Positions 25,816 to 61,716 of a DNA stretch of 64,000 nt are shown here, in pieces; within the stretch, counting starts at the first letter, position 1, and every line of letters begins with the position of its first letter. The DNA is from Holophagae bacterium (GTDB lineage Bacteria; Acidobacteriota; Holophagae; Acanthopleuribacterales; Acanthopleuribacteraceae). Position numbers and translations under genes: made by a program. The stretch spans positions 1 through 64,000 of the forward strand of contig JAJCXM010000034.1 in the NCBI GenBank assembly GCA_029263455.1, written 5' to 3'. The notes beneath the pieces were generated by a model. That model did not search any database, was not told the origin of the DNA, and saw only the letters and a program-made list of their open reading frames with translations.

Positions 25816-26868
25816 TTAGCCCAGTCCAAGTCTTTGGAGTCGATAACTTCCATCCAAAACACGACCACACCAAGTTTGATTGCTTAAGTACCAGTCCACT
25901 GTTTTTGCGATACCGCTCTCAAAGGATTCGCGCGGCAACCAACCCAATTCCGTCGATATCTTGGTGATATCCATGGCGTATCGTCGATCGTGGCCTGGGC
26001 GATCTGTGACAAATTTGATTAGCTCTCGATGGGGGTGCGATTTTTTCTGGCGCTCGTCTAACAAAGCACAAATGGTGTGAACCACTTCCAAATTGGTCTT
26101 TTCGCTTTCGCCGCCGATATTGTAGGTCTCGCCAAGTCGTCCTTTTTCGAGGACAGCAAGAATCGCATCGCAATGATCAGCTACAAATAACCAGTCACGG
26201 ATATTGGCTCCGTCACCATATATGGGTATGGATTCTCCGTTTAACGCTTTCATGATGACGACAGGGATCAACTTTTCAGGGAACTGATAAGGACCGTAGT
26301 TATTTGAACAGTTAGTGGTAACGACCGGTAACCCATATGTGTGGTGATAAGCGCGCACGAGATGATCAGACGCGGCCTTGGATGCAGAGTAAGGCGAATT
26401 TGGCGCATAAGGCGTTGTTTCTTTAAAGGCCCCTTCTTTGCCTAATGATCCATAAACCTCGTCGGTTGATACATGTAAGAACCTAAATGCGCTCTGCTGT
26501 GCCGGCGACAATGAACGCCAATATGCGAGTGTCGCTTGTAGCAATTGAAAGGTACCCACCACATTCGTTTCGACGAAAGCGGCCGGACCGTCAATGGAGC
26601 GGTCGACGTGACTCTCTGCTGCGAAATTGACCACAGCTGAAATGTCGTGTTGCGCAAAAACCTGATCGAGTCGTTCACGATCGACAATGTCAGCTTGGAT
26701 GAAGTGATATTTTTCATTGCCGTTGGCTGCCGCCAAGTTTTCCAAATTACCCGCGTAGGTAAGTTTGTCGATATTTATCACTTCAAATCCGCGATTCAAA
26801 CTTTCAAGCACAAAATTGGATCCGATGAAGCCGGCACCGCCGGTCACCAATAAACAGCCATTACTCAT
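25816..26868 (-). CDS. rfbB: dTDP-glucose 4,6-dehydratase
   Basis: 350 aa. Converts dTDP-glucose to dTDP-4-keto-6-deoxyglucose, an early step to rhamnose and other deoxysugars. The extended-SDR NAD site [10 protein letters not shown] is at residues 9-18. The STDEVYG motif, which carries the catalytic acidic residues, and the [12 protein letters not shown] YxxxK pair are intact. [17 protein letters not shown] signature typical of RfbB follows. The start has AGGAGAAA upstream. It lies 12 nt after sua5, so the two form an operon. The other rhamnose genes (rfbA, C, D) are not in the window. Confidence 0.94.
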
Positions 26869-37133: not shown

Positions 37134-37670
37134 ATGCTTTTCTTCTTGATTCTTTTTGTGGCACCAGGGACTCGTTCCTATTTCACGGCTGAAGAAGCAC
37201 TGCACAAAATATTCCCCGAAGCGACCGCTAACAGAGTTATTTGGTCACAGTGGCAACAAGTCCCCGAGCCCCTAATAAAGGTGCTTAGCGACGATCCCAA
37301 TTTGCGTGACGCCCGATTGCAAGGCGAGTTAATCGTCTATGAAGTTTCGGGTCAGGCGGGCATCATCGGCTGGGCCGTTATGACTGAAGAATTAGGCAAA
37401 CACCAACCTATGACCATGATGGTGGGTATTGCACCTGACCTTAGCGTGCAGTCAGCGCTGCTAATGACTTTCCGCGAAAATCGGGGATCTGGCGTTAAAC
37501 ATCCAAAATTCCAGCAACAGTTTGATGGCAAGAAGACATCCGATGCCGTCGAGGTAGGCATCGACATTGTTCATGTGAGTGGATCAACTATTTCCAGTCG
37601 CTCGATGGCGCTGGCTGTTCGCAAATCACTACGACTGATTACCCAGCTAAAAAATGTGGCTCATCCTTAG
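37134..37670 (+). CDS. Exported FMN-binding domain protein (flavinylation substrate)
   Basis: 178 aa. A signal peptide at the N-terminus (LFFLILFVAPGTRS) is followed by a domain ending in an FMN-binding fold. The flavinylation-type motif appears as HVSGSTISSRS, with T152 the expected site for covalent FMN; SGAT is the usual form, so Ala is replaced by Ser. Such domains carry FMN on the extracytoplasmic side for electron transfer, as in NqrC and RnfG. The apbE gene overlaps its 3' end by 17 bp and would supply the flavin. It is preceded by a Fur-box-like site. Confidence 0.85.
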   Translation: MLFFLILFVAPGTRSYFTAEEALHKIFPEATANRVIWSQWQQVPEPLIKVLSDDPNLRDARLQGELIVYEVSGQAGIIGWAVMTEELGKHQPMTMMVGIAPDLSVQSALLMTFRENRGSGVKHPKFQQQFDGKKTSDAVEVGIDIVHVSGSTISSRSMALAVRKSLRLITQLKNVAHP

Positions 37671-38535
37671 CGCACTGTGCTTGACCCAACAGGTCACGAA
37701 ACAGCAAACTCGGTACCTTATGGGGACTGTGTTCAGCGTTGAAGTTCCCTTCGAGACGTCTGATCAATTGATCGAAAGCGCGTTTAAGGCCGCCGTTTCA
37801 TTAGAGAAACTGGGTACTACATACAACCCAGAAAGCCCATTAATGCTGCTCAGGAACGCTGATGCCCGCTTCTTTGATCAATCATCATCCGCTCAAGCAC
37901 AGCTACTTGAGCACTTGGAACACGCGATCCATTTTGCGCAAATAAGCAATTGTGCCTTCCATCCAGCAACGTCAATACGCCCTTTCCCGGATCTTGGAGC
38001 GATGCGTCACGCCATTACTCAAGCCCGTAAAGGTTACCTCAAACCCATTGGCTGGGATTTGGGCGGCATGCTCAAAGGAACGGCCATCGATGCCATGATC
38101 GACATTTTCAAACAGCACGATGTCCCATGGGCATTGGTCAATGGAGGCGGAGACATGCGCTGGTACGGGAAATCACAGAAGATCATGATTCGCAAACCTG
38201 GCGATAGCGAAGAGAATGTAGCTCTTTTTTTTGTGCAGCTGGAGTCAGGTGCTTTGGCAACTTCTGCAAATGATCGGCGGTTCACCAGGACCTATGACGG
38301 CGTTGAAGGTCACATCCGTTTTTCTGGGCGAGGATTTAGCGAGCAAATCGAACAGGTGAGTGTTTTGGCAACAACCGCTGAATCAGCAGATGCTTGGGCT
38401 ACAGCCCAATTTGTAGGAGGACCTCGTCATGCGCGAGAATGGTGTGAGTCGTACGGATTGAGCGCCGCACTAGTTACTCTTGACGGAGAACTCTTGTTGA
38501 TAGGAGACAAACAGCATGCTTTTACCTATCCCTAA
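37654..38535 (+). CDS. apbE: FAD:protein FMN transferase
   Basis: 293 aa. Transfers FMN from FAD to a Thr/Ser in SGxT motifs of exported proteins. Family elements are present: RYLMGTVFSVEV near the start, DLGGMLKGTAID (about 130-141), ALVNGGGDMRWYG, then SGALATSAND and ESADAWATAQFV with the metal-binding Asp near the C-terminus. A hydrophobic N-terminus (WLILSALCLT) suggests export or anchoring. It overlaps the genes on both sides, so the three form one translational unit. The neighbouring FMN-binding protein is the obvious substrate. Confidence 0.92.
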   Translation: MWLILSALCLTQQVTKQQTRYLMGTVFSVEVPFETSDQLIESAFKAAVSLEKLGTTYNPESPLMLLRNADARFFDQSSSAQAQLLEHLEHAIHFAQISNCAFHPATSIRPFPDLGAMRHAITQARKGYLKPIGWDLGGMLKGTAIDAMIDIFKQHDVPWALVNGGGDMRWYGKSQKIMIRKPGDSEENVALFFVQLESGALATSANDRRFTRTYDGVEGHIRFSGRGFSEQIEQVSVLATTAESADAWATAQFVGGPRHAREWCESYGLSAALVTLDGELLLIGDKQHAFTYP

Positions 38536-39013
38536 ATGGAATCAACGTACGCGGCTCGCATTTGGGATTTTGCTGGCTTTGCTACTGGTGAGTGAAAGCA
38601 CGGCGTTAGCCTTCTACAGCTTGCGCATCGGCCACGGAAATGAGAGTTCCTATTATCGAGGCACACCGGAAGACGCAGAAATAGATTTAGATGAAGGTCT
38701 TTTTTATCCAAAATCGCTGGTCGAACTTCTAGAGGTAGCTCACCCACACAGTTTCGGTTTTGTCATGTTCTTTGCCCTATTGGCCTTTCTGGCAACAGCT
38801 TTTCCTCTAAGTGATCGTAAGATTAAAGTCTGGACTATCGGTTTTGGCGGATCGATCATCGCATTCATGGCGGTCCCTTTTGTGATCCGATTCGTTTGGG
38901 CCGGCGCTTCAGGCGGATACGGTGTTTTTGGTGCCATTATGTCAATCCACGTGTATGCCTTTATAGGGGCAGGTATATGGTCGTTGCGCCAATCGAGTGA
39001 AACTCAGCCATAG
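38516..39013 (+). CDS. Small multi-pass membrane protein of the flavin locus
   Basis: 165 aa. About four hydrophobic segments (from residue 14, 78, 104 and 138), with an extracytoplasmic loop between the first two. Histidines occur at HGNESS, EVAHPHSFG and SIHVYAFIG, close to membrane segments, and could bind heme b; that is only inference. The start follows AGGAGA and overlaps apbE by 20 bp. As the third gene of the unit, a membrane electron donor or anchor for the FMN protein is a reasonable guess. I do not recognise the family. Confidence 0.75.
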   Translation: MLLPIPKWNQRTRLAFGILLALLLVSESTALAFYSLRIGHGNESSYYRGTPEDAEIDLDEGLFYPKSLVELLEVAHPHSFGFVMFFALLAFLATAFPLSDRKIKVWTIGFGGSIIAFMAVPFVIRFVWAGASGGYGVFGAIMSIHVYAFIGAGIWSLRQSSETQP

Positions 39014-39545: not shown

Positions 39546-41696
39546 ATGAGCACCATGCTAGATCGTCATCCATTCATTCACTATTTGTGTATCGTTTCGG
39601 TCCTTATTTTTGCGGCCTGGCTTCGATGGCCACATTCGGAAATCGATCATCGCGCCGTGTATATGGACAATGACAGTCTCTATCAGCTGCAACGCATTCA
39701 TGACACGTTAGTGAACTACCCGAAAGTACCCACCCAAGACGCAAAATTACATCACCCTAATGGCTATCAACTGCATTGGCCAGGGCTATATCCATGGTTG
39801 ATGGCTAGTTATGTCAAACTGGGTTTCGATGCGGTGGACGATAGTTTGGCAGGTATTGCGCGTAAAACCGGTTATTTGCCTATTGTTTGGGGGCTGTTGG
39901 CTTGCCTGTTTTGGATGCGAGCGAGTGCCCAGTTTTTGTCATCAAAGGAAACGTCGATTGCGATTGGACTGCTCATAGGCTGCATGCCATACACCATTGC
40001 AGTCAGTCGCTATGGGATCTTGGATCACCATGGCTTTGTGGATTTGGCGCTTTCGATCATGGCTTACGGTTGTGTATGCAAGCGCCGCTGGATCCAGTCT
40101 ATCGGACTAGTTATGGGTCTTGCGCTAACGCCGGAATTTCCGTATTACGCATTGATATTGCTGGCGATTTGGGCCTGGTACCAATCGTATCTAAGTTTAG
40201 GAAGCAAAGTGGGCGATTGGTTGCCCTTCGCTTTGGTCATGCTTGTGTGGACCTTAAATCAAGTCGTGCAACAAGGCCCTTGGGTTTGGTGGGACTTGTA
40301 TCGTCTTTCGCTTACCCACGCTGCCTTATTTGCTGCCTGTTCATTTGCGGCAAATTTGTCGCGCACCATCGATTGGCGTAAACGGATGCTGCCCTCGTTA
40401 ATGTTCTTTGGCTTGACACTGCTCACCGTTTGTTTGCTTGTTTTGTGGAGCAACGGTCAGGCTGCCATTCTCGTCGAACGCCTCAGTCAAACAGGCCGAA
40501 TGTCGATTGCTGAAGAAACGAGTGTCTTGCGCTGGCCGCTTTGGAACATGCCAATCTGGATCTGGATATATATTCCAATCGCATTTATTGCTGCATTCAA
40601 CTGCGTTCGCGCACTCCTGCGTCGTGCCACGATGGATTTTGTGACAAGCGGGCTGGTACTCGTTACTTACATCGTGGCGCTCAGGGAAATCCGTCATTTT
40701 GCTGTTTTGCAAGGAGCCTTAATCTCGACCGGAATCTGTCTACTCATCATTGGCATGCGTCGAATCGAGCATCCCATTCACATAACCCTAAAACGATCGC
40801 TTGCGCTTGGATTGCTTTGCTTAGCGTTGACGGCGGCTTACATTGGAAACCGACAGTACCAAAGGGTTCGCCAATCGGATTATGCAAACTGGAATCCGTT
40901 GGTCACAGAAATTCCGGCGTGGTTAGCTAAAAATACAAGCTCGCATCACGCCGTCATGGCGCCTTGGGACATTGGCCATCAAATTCGTGTATTGGCAGAC
41001 CGATCCGTATCCTTGGATCCCTTCAATTTCCCAGACCCCATTGATGTCATTATTGAGGATGTCTACCTGGCCAAAGATGAAGACGAATTGCTACAAGCGC
41101 TTGAGCGCTATCAATGCAAATGGTTGGTGGCCGCTAATCCAACTTCATCGATTGCGGCCGTCTTAGATCCTGCTGATACTCGATGGAGCAATTGGTTTGC
41201 TGGGGGAACGGCATCAAATCCGGTCCTACGGCCACAAGCGCTCGAAAACCCTATGGTCAGACTGTGGATTGCACCATCATGGTTGCCACAGAGTTTAAGG
41301 CTGCGGACCGTAGCCGAAAAGACGGTGGCGATTAAGTTTGTCGGTCAGCCAGGCACCGTTTCTTGCCCCCTTTACCGCATCTATGAACAGGTGCCAGGAG
41401 CGCTGGTAAGGGTGATTGATGCAAAAGAGTCATTCAAACTTGAAACGATTGCCCTTTCCGGCGGTCACGAAGTAATCTGTCAACCGCTGATCCAATCTGA
41501 TGATCAAAACACATGGAAGGTCATTTATCCGGCACCCTATAAAGGTCAAGGAATTCAGTTCCCCAATGCCTACCGCTTATGGAATGAGTCACAAGAATTC
41601 GAGGTTGTGATCAGCGAGGAAGACGTCGTCTTGGGTCGCTTGGTTGAGATTCGATTGTCCGATTTGAAACCAGGCAAAGACCAGGTACCTGACTGA
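39546..41696 (+). CDS. STT3/PglB-like oligosaccharyltransferase
   Basis: 716 aa. About 11-13 transmembrane segments (residues 10-450) and a soluble C-terminal domain. STT3 hallmarks: a first-loop acidic motif MDNDSLYQLQRIHDTL (D41, D43), the HPNGYQLHWPGLYPWL stretch, and LDHHGFVDLALS (D160). The WWDYG-equivalent is APWDIGHQIRVLADRSV (W474, D475) in the C-terminal domain. STT3 transfers lipid-linked glycans to Asn. Lengths and motif order fit; the variant PWDIGH replaces WWDYG. No glycan-assembly (pgl) genes lie nearby. The ribosome-binding site is weak and the next ATG is three codons on. Confidence 0.78.
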   Translation: MSTMLDRHPFIHYLCIVSVLIFAAWLRWPHSEIDHRAVYMDNDSLYQLQRIHDTLVNYPKVPTQDAKLHHPNGYQLHWPGLYPWLMASYVKLGFDAVDDSLAGIARKTGYLPIVWGLLACLFWMRASAQFLSSKETSIAIGLLIGCMPYTIAVSRYGILDHHGFVDLALSIMAYGCVCKRRWIQSIGLVMGLALTPEFPYYALILLAIWAWYQSYLSLGSKVGDWLPFALVMLVWTLNQVVQQGPWVWWDLYRLSLTHAALFAACSFAANLSRTIDWRKRMLPSLMFFGLTLLTVCLLVLWSNGQAAILVERLSQTGRMSIAEETSVLRWPLWNMPIWIWIYIPIAFIAAFNCVRALLRRATMDFVTSGLVLVTYIVALREIRHFAVLQGALISTGICLLIIGMRRIEHPIHITLKRSLALGLLCLALTAAYIGNRQYQRVRQSDYANWNPLVTEIPAWLAKNTSSHHAVMAPWDIGHQIRVLADRSVSLDPFNFPDPIDVIIEDVYLAKDEDELLQALERYQCKWLVAANPTSSIAAVLDPADTRWSNWFAGGTASNPVLRPQALENPMVRLWIAPSWLPQSLRLRTVAEKTVAIKFVGQPGTVSCPLYRIYEQVPGALVRVIDAKESFKLETIALSGGHEVICQPLIQSDDQNTWKVIYPAPYKGQGIQFPNAYRLWNESQEFEVVISEEDVVLGRLVEIRLSDLKPGKDQVPD

Positions 41697-41820: not shown

Positions 41821-42495
41821 CTAGCCTAGATCAAATAACAGGTTCTTTGCCCAACCTTGTACCATTTCTTGGTACATCGGGTAGGGCTCCAAATCGGTCA
41901 CAGACGCTATTTCTGTTAGCAATTCTTTGGCCTGACCTCTTTTTCGTTTTTCAGCATATACAGTGGCTAAGAAGTAGCGGTTCAGCAAGAATTCAGGGCT
42001 CAATTCGACCGCGGATTTCAACAAATCGATCGCTTTGTTCTTATCGCCTGATCCAACCGGCCAACCTGGACATTGTTGGTAAAAGCGTCCTAGCAAGCGC
42101 AAGGGCGCAGCAAAAAAGAATGCTTCATCCAGATCAACAGCTATAAGTGCATGTTTTTCGATCGGCTTTATGTAGAAGAGTGACGACATGATACCTTTGA
42201 TCAAACCATGAGAACCCATGTTGGCGGCATACCAGAGATGCGCAGCAACGTCATCTTCAGAATAAATAGCCGCTCGCTCCCCTGCCCTCACTCCTTGTTG
42301 ATGTGCGGCTTCCTTTTTCGAATCGTCTGTGTCGTACTCGCCGAGCCAATAACATGCCTCCGATAACATCGTCCACGCGATGCCATCATCCGATTCGTCA
42401 GCCAAATGGGCGTCAATCTCATCCCGCACCTTGATCAGATTGTTTGGATGATCGTCTTCTCGGTTGTCTATCTGATCTCGCCATGCCTGATACAT
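41821..42495 (-). CDS. TPR/TatT-like hypothetical protein
   Basis: 224 aa from the ATG at 42493-42495; a TTG four codons upstream is an alternative. Helical throughout, with TPR-like repeats. AIDLLKSAVELSPEFLLNRY and KRKRGQAKELLTEI form the last two helix pairs, and AHLWYAANMGSHGLIKG (about 105-121) resembles the TRAP-T-associated TatT family. There is no signal peptide, so it is probably cytoplasmic. No neighbour gives a role. Confidence 0.65.
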   Translation of the reverse strand: MYQAWRDQIDNREDDHPNNLIKVRDEIDAHLADESDDGIAWTMLSEACYWLGEYDTDDSKKEAAHQQGVRAGERAAIYSEDDVAAHLWYAANMGSHGLIKGIMSSLFYIKPIEKHALIAVDLDEAFFFAAPLRLLGRFYQQCPGWPVGSGDKNKAIDLLKSAVELSPEFLLNRYFLATVYAEKRKRGQAKELLTEIASVTDLEPYPMYQEMVQGWAKNLLFDLG

Positions 42496-42618
42496 AAAGC
42501 CACCCAATCATCTGATTTAGCTAGCATAACAAGCCTATCAGCCCATGACTACGGGCATTTCTATACCTTAGTCTAAGTACTGATTGCAATTGCTGCTACA
42601 GCCAGCGATTCGATCAGA

Positions 42619-52562: not shown

Positions 52563-55500
52563 TCAGTTATGCTGATTCTTAAATACATCATCCAGCAGCT
52601 GGGCAAGTTCTTCCTGTTTGTAAGGCTTGTGAATGAACCAGGTGTTTTCTGAATGGCGGAATTCGGCCATTGCCTGAGATTGACCATAACCACTGGTAAG
52701 CACCGCCTTGATAGAAGGATCTTGCATTCTCATTTGTTTCAAAACTTCGTCGCCGTTCATGTAAGGCAAGGTTATATCCAGCAGAATCAAATCGATTTCA
52801 CGATAGTTAGCATCGAATCGTTCCATCGCCTGCTTACCATCTTCAGCAAGAATCACTTTGTAACCGTGGATGGAAAGCGTGGCATCGATCACCTCACGAA
52901 CCATCGGGTCATCTTCAACTAGCAAGATCGTCTTCCCACCAATTCCAGTGAGCTGACTATCAAAAACTTCAACCGGTTGACTGTGACACAAGGGAAAGAA
53001 TATTTGAAATGAAGTGCCTTCGCCGACCTGAGATTCCACTTTTATGGCACCACCATGCGTGTTGACGATGCCGATAACGGCCGCTAGTCCCAATCCCCGT
53101 CCCACAAATTTAGTTGAATAAAAGGGCTCGAAAATGCGTTTGAACTGTTCGACGGGGATACCACAACCATTATCGCTAACGGTTAAACAAACAAAACCAC
53201 CTTCATAATCTGTATCTATTGCTGAAAAGCTGGGTTGGATCGGTTCGAGTCGATCAACGATGTCTGTTGATACTTTCACGCGTCCATTAACCTTTGAAAC
53301 TGATTCTGAAGCATTGGTGATTAGATTCATGGCGACTTGCAGTATTTGGCCACGATCTGCCAACACACAAATATTCTGGTCACTGAGACTGGTCTCCAAA
53401 TGAATGCCTTTTGGAACGCTTAATTCCAATAGCTGCATGGTCTCCACAATCATTGCATTCAGATTGACGGCTTCCTGCACTAACGGTTCTTTCCCAGCAT
53501 AAGCAAGCATCTGTCGGGTCAAATCTGCGGCTCGTTCGGCCGAAACCGTGATATTGCTTATCAATTTTTTGGTACTCGATTTGACCTTGTTATCGCGCAT
53601 CGCTAACTCTGCATTGCCCATAATGGCACTAAGCAAATTGTTGAAATCATGGGCAATTCCGCCCGCCAGTAAACCCAGTGACTCCAATCGCTGAGCTTGT
53701 TGCAGAGCTTCATCGGAGCGCTTGCGGTTGGTGATGTTGCGGCCGATCGTATGTGCCACAATCGCCTGATTATCTTCGTCGCGAATGAGGCTGGCATTGA
53801 GACTCAACCACAGCTCACTGCCATCGGCGGTTTGCACGCGTATCTCGAGATTTTCGACTGGCTTATCGTTTGAGTAAAGCGCTGCATAAGCTCGATTTAA
53901 GGCAGCGACATCTTCATCGACAACAAAAAATGCAGTCGGTTTCCCTAAGACAGAGTCTTTTTCATAACCCAACATCCAACTGGCGGCCAGGTTACAATTA
54001 ATGATGACTCCTTCGCGGTCAGTACTGCAGTATAAGTCAGGCGCATGTTCGTACAGCTCCTGATAGCGACTAAGAAACTTTGCCATCTCATGACGCTGAT
54101 GCCGTTTTTGAATGACCTTATTGAGGACCGCAGCCATGCGTAACAGAATGGCAAGCAATACAACAGCTAGGCCAGTTAGAAACCAAGCTTTTTGCCAGAA
54201 CGGTGCCGTAACGACAAATCGCAGCTCTGCCACCTGCTCGCTCCAAACCGAATCATTGTTCATGGCTTGTACTTGAAAATGGTATGAACCAGGAGGTAGT
54301 CGTTCATAAATGGAGGAACGACGCGTCGTGATAGGGCCCCAACCTTTGTCTAAACCTTGCATCCAGGTTCGATAACGCACCTCATCCTCATTCGTGAATG
54401 ACAACGCGGCATATTTGATCTCAACTTGGTTTTGATCGTGATTGAGCCTGAGTCGTGCGTTTTGCGGTTTAATTTCACCATTCACAGTCCAAGACTCAAT
54501 TAAGACCCGGGGGGCAACAGAGTTCTGTTTGACGTCAGACGGCGCATATTTCGAGACACCGGTCGAGGTACCAAACCAAAGGTTTCCTTCTCGATCAACG
54601 AAGCTTGAGTCCCATAACGACTCGTCGCCAACCAAGCCGTCATTATGATCAAAAGTTCGAAATGAATCACCGTCGAATTGAACGACGCCCTGATTACTGC
54701 CAATCCAGAGTCCATGTTGATCTGTATCGATTAGAGAGAATAGATTGTTATTAGGTAGTCCGTCTTTGGTTGTGTAGAGGCGAAACGCTTGACCATCATA
54801 TTTCAAGAGACCAACGCTGGAAGATACCCACACCAAACCTTCGTGATCGATTAGCAAGCCTGTCGCTTCACCGGGTTGGTAACCATCTTCGGCGCCAAGC
54901 ATTTGAAAACCTTCACCGTCGTACATAAGTAAAAAGAAGTTTGTGCACATCCACAACCTTCCAGACTTATCCCATTGCATATCTTTAACGAACCAACGCG
55001 GCAAATCCATATCGCAGACTAGTGGCTCAAAATAATCGCCTTCCTGCGAATGAAAAACACCGAGTCCGTTACGATGGTTAGTGGCAATCCAAATACCCCC
55101 TTTGGGGCCCTCTACGATGGAATTGACATATTCGCCAATAACGCCATCAGATTCATCGAATATATGCGTTCCACTTGCATCCATGCGGTTGAGACCATCA
55201 TTAGTCCCCACCCAAAAACGCCGTTTTGAATCGTAAAACAAACTACGGATGACGTCACTTGACAGGCCCGATTCTCGACCAATTTTCGTCATCTCTTCGT
55301 CTTTCAGTCTGGTTAGCCCCCCACCTCGAGTTCCAAACCACATAGCTCCTTCGTGGTCTTGAGAAATGGCGGTGACGAATCCGCTAGATAGACCATTTGT
55401 CTTTGAATAGTTTTCGAATCGCCGACCTACATATTTGGATAAACCACTGCCGTAAGTTCCAACCCACAGGTTTCCTTCATAGTCTTCCATCAGGCTGGTG

Positions 55501-56438
55501 ACGTAGTCGCTTACTAAGCCGTTCTTTTCGCCCACCACAAAGCCAGGTGTTGGGCTGATCGACTGAATTCCGCCACCGAATGTTCCAATCCATAAACCTG
55601 AACGGGCAGAATAAGTCATGGCGCCAATATTGTTACTCACGAGTCCATCTGATTCTGTAAGGACATCAACCTTTGAGTCCGAAATCAGATTGACACCGCC
55701 CTCGCCAGTTCCGACATACATTTTGCCGTCATTTGACTCGGCTAGACAAAACACATCGTTGTTTGACAATCCGGTTTGAGTATTTATTGTGCGGATTTCA
55801 CCACCATCAAGTATATTTAGACCGCCGCCGCGAGTACCGATCCATACCCGTCCCTGTCGATCTTCCAACATGGACCAGACCGTATCGTTTGCCAGTCCAT
55901 CAGCTAAACTGATCTGTCTTGTAACGCCTGACTCAATACAATAAATACCTGAACCATATGTGCCCAGCCAAATACTCCCGTCTTTACGTTCCAAACCACA
56001 TAAGAATGTATTGGATGCCGCTTGTTTATCGTCGAAACGCATCCAACTTCCTTGGCTATAGCGATATGCGCCGGTTGAAGTACAAATCCACAAATCGCCA
56101 GCTCGTGTTTCGATAATCTTCCTGACTTGGCCCAATTCCTTCTGGTCAGAGGGCGTCAACACATCGAAACTATGACCGTTGTAGCGGTTCAAGCCCCCGT
56201 ATGTTCCCACCCAAATATAGCCCTTCGCATCCTGAAGGACGTCAAAAACGGCACCGTGAGCTAAGCCATCGCTACTTGTGTAATTACGAATTTGGTAGTG
56301 TTGAGCCGCAATTGGGCTGCAAAAGACACATGCTAGCAACCAGGCTGGCTGTTTGAACAAACTTACCAAGCCAGAAGTGAGGGCTCCTCTAATCTCCGCA
56401 CAAGCTCTCATCAGCCAAAATACGTAGCAATAAAACAT
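52563..56438 (-). CDS. Hybrid two-component sensor kinase with beta-propeller sensor
   Basis: 1291 aa. A signal peptide or anchor (about 1-45) precedes two Reg_prop beta-propellers (about 50-680) of repeats such as GLWIGTFGGGIQSIS. A Y_Y_Y domain (about 680-750) and a transmembrane helix (about 753-772) follow. Inside the cytoplasm come a PAS domain (about 795-915), HisKA with H-box GIAHDFNNLLSA (H about 928), HATPase (about 1030-1150, DNGCGI) and a receiver domain with LLDITLP (D about 1220). The receiver lacks an attached DNA-binding output, unlike the Bacteroides HTCS proteins it resembles. Ligand unknown, probably a polysaccharide-type cue by family precedent. Confidence 0.93.
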   Translation of the reverse strand: MFYCYVFWLMRACAEIRGALTSGLVSLFKQPAWLLACVFCSPIAAQHYQIRNYTSSDGLAHGAVFDVLQDAKGYIWVGTYGGLNRYNGHSFDVLTPSDQKELGQVRKIIETRAGDLWICTSTGAYRYSQGSWMRFDDKQAASNTFLCGLERKDGSIWLGTYGSGIYCIESGVTRQISLADGLANDTVWSMLEDRQGRVWIGTRGGGLNILDGGEIRTINTQTGLSNNDVFCLAESNDGKMYVGTGEGGVNLISDSKVDVLTESDGLVSNNIGAMTYSARSGLWIGTFGGGIQSISPTPGFVVGEKNGLVSDYVTSLMEDYEGNLWVGTYGSGLSKYVGRRFENYSKTNGLSSGFVTAISQDHEGAMWFGTRGGGLTRLKDEEMTKIGRESGLSSDVIRSLFYDSKRRFWVGTNDGLNRMDASGTHIFDESDGVIGEYVNSIVEGPKGGIWIATNHRNGLGVFHSQEGDYFEPLVCDMDLPRWFVKDMQWDKSGRLWMCTNFFLLMYDGEGFQMLGAEDGYQPGEATGLLIDHEGLVWVSSSVGLLKYDGQAFRLYTTKDGLPNNNLFSLIDTDQHGLWIGSNQGVVQFDGDSFRTFDHNDGLVGDESLWDSSFVDREGNLWFGTSTGVSKYAPSDVKQNSVAPRVLIESWTVNGEIKPQNARLRLNHDQNQVEIKYAALSFTNEDEVRYRTWMQGLDKGWGPITTRRSSIYERLPPGSYHFQVQAMNNDSVWSEQVAELRFVVTAPFWQKAWFLTGLAVVLLAILLRMAAVLNKVIQKRHQRHEMAKFLSRYQELYEHAPDLYCSTDREGVIINCNLAASWMLGYEKDSVLGKPTAFFVVDEDVAALNRAYAALYSNDKPVENLEIRVQTADGSELWLSLNASLIRDEDNQAIVAHTIGRNITNRKRSDEALQQAQRLESLGLLAGGIAHDFNNLLSAIMGNAELAMRDNKVKSSTKKLISNITVSAERAADLTRQMLAYAGKEPLVQEAVNLNAMIVETMQLLELSVPKGIHLETSLSDQNICVLADRGQILQVAMNLITNASESVSKVNGRVKVSTDIVDRLEPIQPSFSAIDTDYEGGFVCLTVSDNGCGIPVEQFKRIFEPFYSTKFVGRGLGLAAVIGIVNTHGGAIKVESQVGEGTSFQIFFPLCHSQPVEVFDSQLTGIGGKTILLVEDDPMVREVIDATLSIHGYKVILAEDGKQAMERFDANYREIDLILLDITLPYMNGDEVLKQMRMQDPSIKAVLTSGYGQSQAMAEFRHSENTWFIHKPYKQEELAQLLDDVFKNQHN

Positions 56439-57533: not shown

Positions 57534-60759
<3,226 letters not shown>

Positions 60760-61716
60760 ATGGCATTGGAACGCGCCCGTCGGGTGCTTGAAATTGAAGC
60801 TCAAGCGATCGCTGATTTGGCCCAGCAATTAGACGACAGTTTTGTGGCTATGGTTGACCTGATCGCCCAGAGTTCGGGTCGAGTGATTCTGACGGGCATG
60901 GGCAAGAGTGGCATTGTCTGCCGCAAGATTGCAGCTACTTTAGCCAGTACTGGCACGCCCGCCTTCTTCTTGCACCCGGCTGAAGCTATCCACGGCGATT
61001 TAGGCATGATCGTTGAGGGCGACACCGTCATTGCCATATCCAATTCTGGAGAGACACAAGAATTAGTGCGTTTGATGGAATACATTAAACGACAAGGCGC
61101 AACGCTGATTGCCGTGACTGGCAAATCACAGAGCACGTTGGCCAAGTATGCCGACTGCGCATTTACGTTTAGCATCAACGAAGAAGGTTGCCCAATTGGA
61201 CTAGCACCGATGGCTTCAACCACCACGACAATGGCCATTGGCGACGCCTTAGCCGCCGCGTTGATGGAACGCAAAGGCTTCACATCGGCCGATTTTGCCC
61301 GTTTCCATCCTGGTGGCAAGCTTGGCAATAAACTACTAAAAGTGCATGAAGTAATGCATACGGGCACGGATCTGCCATTGGTCGATCAGGAAACACAGTT
61401 GGCACAAGCACTGGTAGAAATGAGCCAAAAACGACTGGGCATGACGGTTGTGCAACTAAGAGAAGGCGGATTAGGCCTCATCTCCGACGGCGACGTGCGT
61501 AGATTGTTGCAGGAACACGGTCCCAAAGCACTTGAATTTGAAGCGCAATCAATTTGCAGTAGAACGCCGAAAACCATTGAATCTAGTCGGCTTGCCGTTG
61601 AGGCCCTCAATCTGATGGAGCACCACCATATTACGGCGTTGATCGTCTCTGACGGTCCGGGCCAATACACAGGTGTCATTCACTTACACGACCTATGGAA
61701 AACCCAACTCATTTAG
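60760..61716 (+). CDS. kdsD: Arabinose-5-phosphate isomerase
   Basis: 318 aa. Makes arabinose-5-phosphate from ribulose-5-phosphate for KdsA. The SIS domain (about 30-190) has GMGKSGIVCRKIAATLASTG, then HPAEAIHGDLGMI and the SNSGETQEL sugar-phosphate loop. Two CBS domains follow (about 200-318; TGTDLPLVDQET, GVIHLHDLWKT). The ATG follows the kdsA stop directly. In several lineages kdsC comes next; here the operon ends, so the phosphatase step must be encoded elsewhere. Confidence 0.96.
   Translation: MALERARRVLEIEAQAIADLAQQLDDSFVAMVDLIAQSSGRVILTGMGKSGIVCRKIAATLASTGTPAFFLHPAEAIHGDLGMIVEGDTVIAISNSGETQELVRLMEYIKRQGATLIAVTGKSQSTLAKYADCAFTFSINEEGCPIGLAPMASTTTTMAIGDALAAALMERKGFTSADFARFHPGGKLGNKLLKVHEVMHTGTDLPLVDQETQLAQALVEMSQKRLGMTVVQLREGGLGLISDGDVRRLLQEHGPKALEFEAQSICSRTPKTIESSRLAVEALNLMEHHHITALIVSDGPGQYTGVIHLHDLWKTQLI

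Follow-up and report, generated by a model that had tools for sequence, protein, structure and literature searches.

Our analysis concerns a window of 64,000 nucleotides, positions 1 to 64,000 of contig JAJCXM010000034.1 (C34) in the 6.25 Mb, 40-contig assembly of a Holophagae bacterium, and within it a reading frame predicted to encode a membrane glycosyltransferase. The features of this gene, and a paralogue on another contig, are as follows.

39546..41696, + strand: STT3/AglB-like membrane glycosyltransferase of the xWxxGH type, 716 aa, ATG start (profile homology, tree)
39666..39674, + strand: EL1 acidic motif D41-N42-D43, in which D43 aligns with D47 of A. fulgidus AglB (AfAglB) (alignment of homologues)
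40023..40031, + strand: EL2 motif D160-H161-H162, aligned with AfAglB D161-H162-H163 (alignment of homologues)
40503..40514, + strand: EL5 motif S320-I321-A322-E323 of the TIXE/SVSE type, aligned with AfAglB TIAE, E360 (alignment of homologues)
40692..40694, + strand: R383, aligned with AfAglB R426, which lies near the lipid phosphate (alignment of homologues)
40866..41693, + strand: soluble C-terminal part, from about residue 441 to 716, which aligns with core and peripheral domain of AglB (profile match, hydropathy)
40962..40979, + strand: P473-W474-D475-I476-G477-H478, replacing W550-W551-D552-Y553-G554-H555 of AfAglB (profile alignment)
C8:581746-583872, strand not given: paralogue, 719 aa (26% identity)

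Directly upstream of the transferase gene (37134-39013) lie genes for an FMN_bind protein, a flavin transferase (ApbE) and a membrane protein of 165 aa, a group that is kept in a second genome of the same genus (G001); it resembles an extracytoplasmic flavinylation unit and is probably unrelated to the transferase. A TPR protein that matches the sterol transporter BstC below the cut-off (E 4.9e-23) is encoded at 41821-42507 and adjoins the transferase in both genomes. The order common to the two runs from a porin-like gene on the opposite strand through FMN_bind, ApbE, the 165/167-aa membrane protein and the transferase to the TPR gene on the other strand. The frame is not a chance one, because an orthologue occupies this same gene order in a genome of the same genus and because D43, D160 and E323 are invariant over 23 homologues. 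Further out, the window contains a large hybrid two-component sensor in which Reg_prop propellers are combined with PAS, histidine kinase and receiver domains (52563-56438), a GDP-mannose 4,6-dehydratase-like gene (25816-26868), to that side of the transferase the closest clear nucleotide-sugar gene among the scanned proteins, and a row of cytidylyltransferase, CTP synthase, DAHP-synthase-family and SIS/CBS genes resembling a KDO-biosynthesis cluster (57534-61716). A preliminary description of the locus had reported no lipid-linked glycan genes around the transferase; domain scans agree for its immediate neighbours, and the wider window holds the dehydratase-like and KDO-type genes just named.

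With the window protein as query, a Pfam scan at E <= 0.1 returned no family, PF02516 STT3 and PMT included, phmmer against the PDB gave no significant match, and no relative was found in a genome-contig collection or in five other genomes of the same family; plasmid records likewise contained no match. The archaeal STT3 model TIGR04154 (NCBIfam) matches residues 15-174 (E 1.8e-14) with 53.1 bits, where the curated cut-off is 450. A search with the window protein across 61 genomes (its own and relatives) matched two: its own genome, where the hits are the window gene and the 719-aa paralogue (26% identical), and G001, whose orthologue is 36% identical to the window protein. A three-row alignment retrieved only the G001 record from the contig collection and, as a profile, matched 27 of 297 genomes of the phylum, while a profile of 23 aligned proteins that include one WWDYG protein (A2) matched 101 of 396, many of these matches being weak and GT-C/PMT-like. 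Among the loci fetched, 45 distinct proteins at E < 1e-15 constitute our homologue set, and four partial matches (G150:C86, G016:C77, G266:C4 and G088:C183) and weaker PMT-like matches fall outside it.

Against proteins of known structure, the A2 profile matched AfAglB with E 1.1e-100, and a second profile built from 24 relatives, every one without WWDYG (A4), matched it almost end to end (5gmy/3waj; E 1.6e-92; profile positions 25-644 and 653-753). The A4 profile also matched human STT3A (E 5.7e-25) and, weakly, C. lari PglB (3rce; E ~1.3e-4); the window trio alone matched AfAglB weakly (E 2.4e-7), mainly in its N-terminal half. TIGR04154 matches all 23 A2 members and Pfam STT3 15 of them, and the paralogue clears the PF02516 gathering cut-off at 33.8 bits. 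For a family marked by 13 transmembrane helices followed by a soluble C-terminal domain, hydropathy places all hydrophobic segments of the window protein before about residue 440 and a soluble region beyond; an AF2 model from a two-sequence input (the window protein and L014) had a mean pLDDT of 37.7 and a pTM of 0.33. Collectively, the profile evidence gives good support to the view that the window protein is a genuine if remote homologue of STT3/AglB, and the family assignment that the preliminary description had made from motif order and topology is borne out by the A4 match to AfAglB and by TIGR04154.

According to PMC8342417, AfAglB binds its metal through D47 of the first DXD motif (GND) and, in the second motif (DHH), through D161 and H163, with E360 of TIAE acting by way of water. 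The features expected of STT3, AglB and PglB proteins at these sites, namely an EL1 Asp, a DXD-type motif in EL2 and an EL5 Glu, are all present in the window protein. D43 is kept in all 42 homologues that cover the region (three of the 45 lack it), D160 in 45/45, H162 in 42/45 and E323 in 44/45, with D in the remaining one; position R383 is R in 38 of the 45 and K in five. The invariant columns of the 23-protein alignment are four: D43, G73, D160 and E323. The reading frame and its DND, DHH and PWDIGH motifs lie where they had been described (D41-D43, D160-H162 and P473-H478), to which we add SIAE at 320-323 as a fourth motif that completes the metal/catalytic set of D43, D160-x-H162 and E323.

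The WWDYG motif serves as a signature of N-oligosaccharyltransferases. The window protein reads PWDIG at this site, with residue pairs from P473/W550 to H478/H555 counted along the alignment, and of WWD it lacks only the first W, with W474 and D475 still in place. Across the 45 Acidobacteriota homologues the first W is present in ten, all of which read WWDxGY, and absent in 35, of which 33 read x-W/F-x-x-G/S-H, with the H at position 478. The first position in these 35 is P (15), D (10), Q (3), H (2), S (2), E (2) or T (1), the second is W (31) or F (4), and the motif Asp is present in ten and missing in 25; both the G001 orthologue (SWSLGH) and the paralogue (SWGSSH) are without it. In AfAglB, WWDYG and DK/MI build the Ser/Thr pocket for the sequon (accessible text of PMC8342417), and a role of WWD in sequon reading appears also in the accessible part of PMC7226087. 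In the DK/MI stretch, where the alignment is loose, the window protein has neither D-x-x-K nor M-x-x-I, nor the K/R-F/Y-like pattern of most WWD proteins.

We placed 42 of the 45 proteins, leaving out the fragments L124, L054 and L125, in a maximum-likelihood tree that is unrooted and does not set which motif type is ancestral. A single branch with 100/100 support splits the WWDxGY type from the type without the first W, and the window protein, its orthologue and its paralogue group together (100/99). Judged by its sequence, then, the window protein belongs to a distinct branch of STT3/AglB-like proteins in Acidobacteriota; it retains the catalytic centre of these enzymes, and most of the pocket for reading the sequon is gone. 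The replacement of WWDYG by PWDIGH, which had been described for this protein, is real, and it is common to a well-supported branch of the family in Acidobacteriota and no private oddity. The catalytic acids are kept throughout, so that selection has maintained the centre for glycan transfer while the tripeptide that reads the sequon has diverged.

The gene had also been called an orphan, which is apt locally and fails genome-wide, since the paralogue, PF00953 enzymes, a flippase and glycosyltransferases lie elsewhere in the genome. At the paralogue locus (L012:7439-11369, which is C8:580439-584369) the paralogue and a VKOR gene (PF07884) overlap by 4 bp, and 3' of the paralogue are a pair of type IV pilin genes, the gene of a TMTC-like protein (PF08409), a GT2 gene and a large DUF4114 gene, which we take to be PilY1-like. 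A thioredoxin-like gene is divergent at the same locus. The pairing with VKOR is reminiscent of the oxidoreductase subunits of the eukaryotic OST, and the paralogue, VKOR and pilin genes could form a pilin-modifying unit coupled to disulfide chemistry. There are four N-X-S/T sites in one pilin, one in the other and nine in the PilY1-like protein, counts that are near shuffled expectation (p 0.047, 0.83 and 0.77 in three uncorrected tests), and sequon enrichment gives no support to N-glycosylation of these neighbouring pilins.

The genome has three PF00953 genes and one flippase over the cut-off. A search for flippase and glycosyltransferase genes, which the preliminary description had proposed, led to an island on contig C22 (L076:7549-14922; counterpart in G001, L077:5385-12740) that comprises a WecA-type PF00953 gene, two glycosyltransferases (GT1 and GT2), a flippase and a 707-aa GT-C-like protein. 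This island is a candidate source of a lipid-linked glycan; it may serve LPS instead, because WaaL/Wzy-type genes (PF04932) are present, three in this genome and four in G001. PF02397 genes were found in neither genome. The neighbourhoods of the xW class (22 loci) have no convincing element in common: besides the transferases, the largest shared cluster contains GT2 and occurs at six of the 22 loci, with some members being wrong-strand frames of high-GC DNA. A wider comparison (51 loci and the window), in which such frames were also many, revealed no shared substrate gene among the matches listed.

We consider the window protein best read as a transferase of the AglB type that uses lipid-linked glycans and recognises its acceptor in a non-canonical way, a reading to which we assign a probability of roughly one half. 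Homology shows an STT3/AglB-type membrane transferase with the metal/catalytic set of D43, D160, H162 and E323, and points to the complete arrangement of AglB, in which a multi-pass membrane half precedes a C-terminal soluble domain. It would bind a polyprenyl-(di)phosphate-linked glycan that is assembled at the cytoplasmic face and then flipped, perhaps through the WecA/GT/Wzx island on C22, and it would move this glycan to an exported protein outside the cytoplasmic membrane. Because xWxxGH replaces the WWDYG pocket throughout the clade, the acceptor would not be read through the canonical +2 Ser/Thr pocket, and the site code would differ from N-X-S/T. For the paralogue, the neighbouring pair of pilin genes suggests pilin-like proteins as a substrate of its own. 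Somewhat more tentatively, we propose that this Acidobacteriota branch kept the lipid-linked-glycan centre, with xWxxGH for WWDYG, and took on a different acceptor code, which could be directed at residues or contexts of another kind on pilins or similar proteins, or at acceptors that are not proteins.

Were the protein instead an ordinary N-oligosaccharyltransferase for N-X-S/T, it would tolerate P for the first W and hold the +2 Ser/Thr with W474 and D475. The retention of both residues and of all catalytic ones speaks for this, as do the sequons in the pilins beside the paralogue, but neither the orthologue, the paralogue nor 25 of the 35 xW proteins retain the D, and the pilins and the PilY1-like protein carry about as many sequons as expected from shuffling; we regard this explanation as unlikely. 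Protein N-glycosylation, which the gene had been said to imply, cannot be deduced from it, since the change falls on the very residues that read N-X-S/T. The other option offered at the time, a different transferase, accounts for the evidence no less well. Nor should the protein be filed as a canonical N-oligosaccharyltransferase, because it lacks WWDYG and does not reach the curated cut-offs.

An STT3 fold that moves a lipid-linked glycan or a single sugar to a lipid, a surface polysaccharide or a small molecule would account for a lost peptide-reading motif next to a retained lipid/metal site, for the lack of a substrate gene adjoining the window copy and for the GT2 genes near some relatives. 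The location of the paralogue among pilin genes and the persistence of an AglB-like C-terminal soluble region count against such a non-protein acceptor, which we find as doubtful as the ordinary sequon-reading enzyme. Decay into an inactive paralogue is quite improbable: the sequence is indeed divergent and below curated family cut-offs, but the 716-codon frame is intact, synteny with an intact orthologue is conserved and the catalytic residues are invariant over 23 homologues.

Of the closest known systems, A. fulgidus AglB (PDB 3WAJ, 5GMY and 7E9S) shares the near end-to-end profile match, equivalent metal residues (D47, D161, H163 and E360), the G-H that closes the motif (WWDYGH in AglB) and an aligned C-terminal peripheral domain. 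It differs in having WWDYG where the window protein has PWDIG and the orthologue and paralogue have still more degenerate forms, and in that the window protein is bacterial and, in a loose alignment, has no clear DK motif. Campylobacter PglB belongs to the same superfamily and is matched weakly (3rce), whereas the window gene lies outside a pgl-like cluster, has DHH in EL2 instead of D-x-D/E and lacks WWDYG. The ten WWDxGY proteins of other Acidobacteriota (e.g. L058 and L117) share phylum and catalytic residues with the window protein but retain WWD and are set off by the 100/100 branch. Bacterial PMT/TMTC-type glycosyltransferases are also GT-C membrane enzymes, and one (PF08409) lies near the paralogue, but they belong to other Pfam families, and PMT models do not match the window protein at E <= 0.1.

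For comparison with prior work we drew on accessible parts of PMC8342417, PMC7226087, PMC4894442, PMC4973528 and PMC5898192. In these, 24 bacterial PglB-type enzymes surveyed come from epsilon- and deltaproteobacteria and aquificae (PMC4894442), and a few bacterial homologues branch among the euryarchaeal members of the Stt3/AglB tree (PMC4973528, the accessible text of which lacks the term 'Acidobacteria'). Our literature search, mostly outside subscription journals and so no proof of absence, returned no report of a WWDYG-less STT3 clade in Acidobacteriota.

A clade that has every catalytic residue and lacks WWDYG is a natural experiment that separates glycan transfer from sequon reading. 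If these proteins are active, they would be transferases with new acceptor specificities, which may be of use in glycoengineering, and the presence of a bacterial STT3-fold gene would be no proof of N-X-S/T glycosylation.
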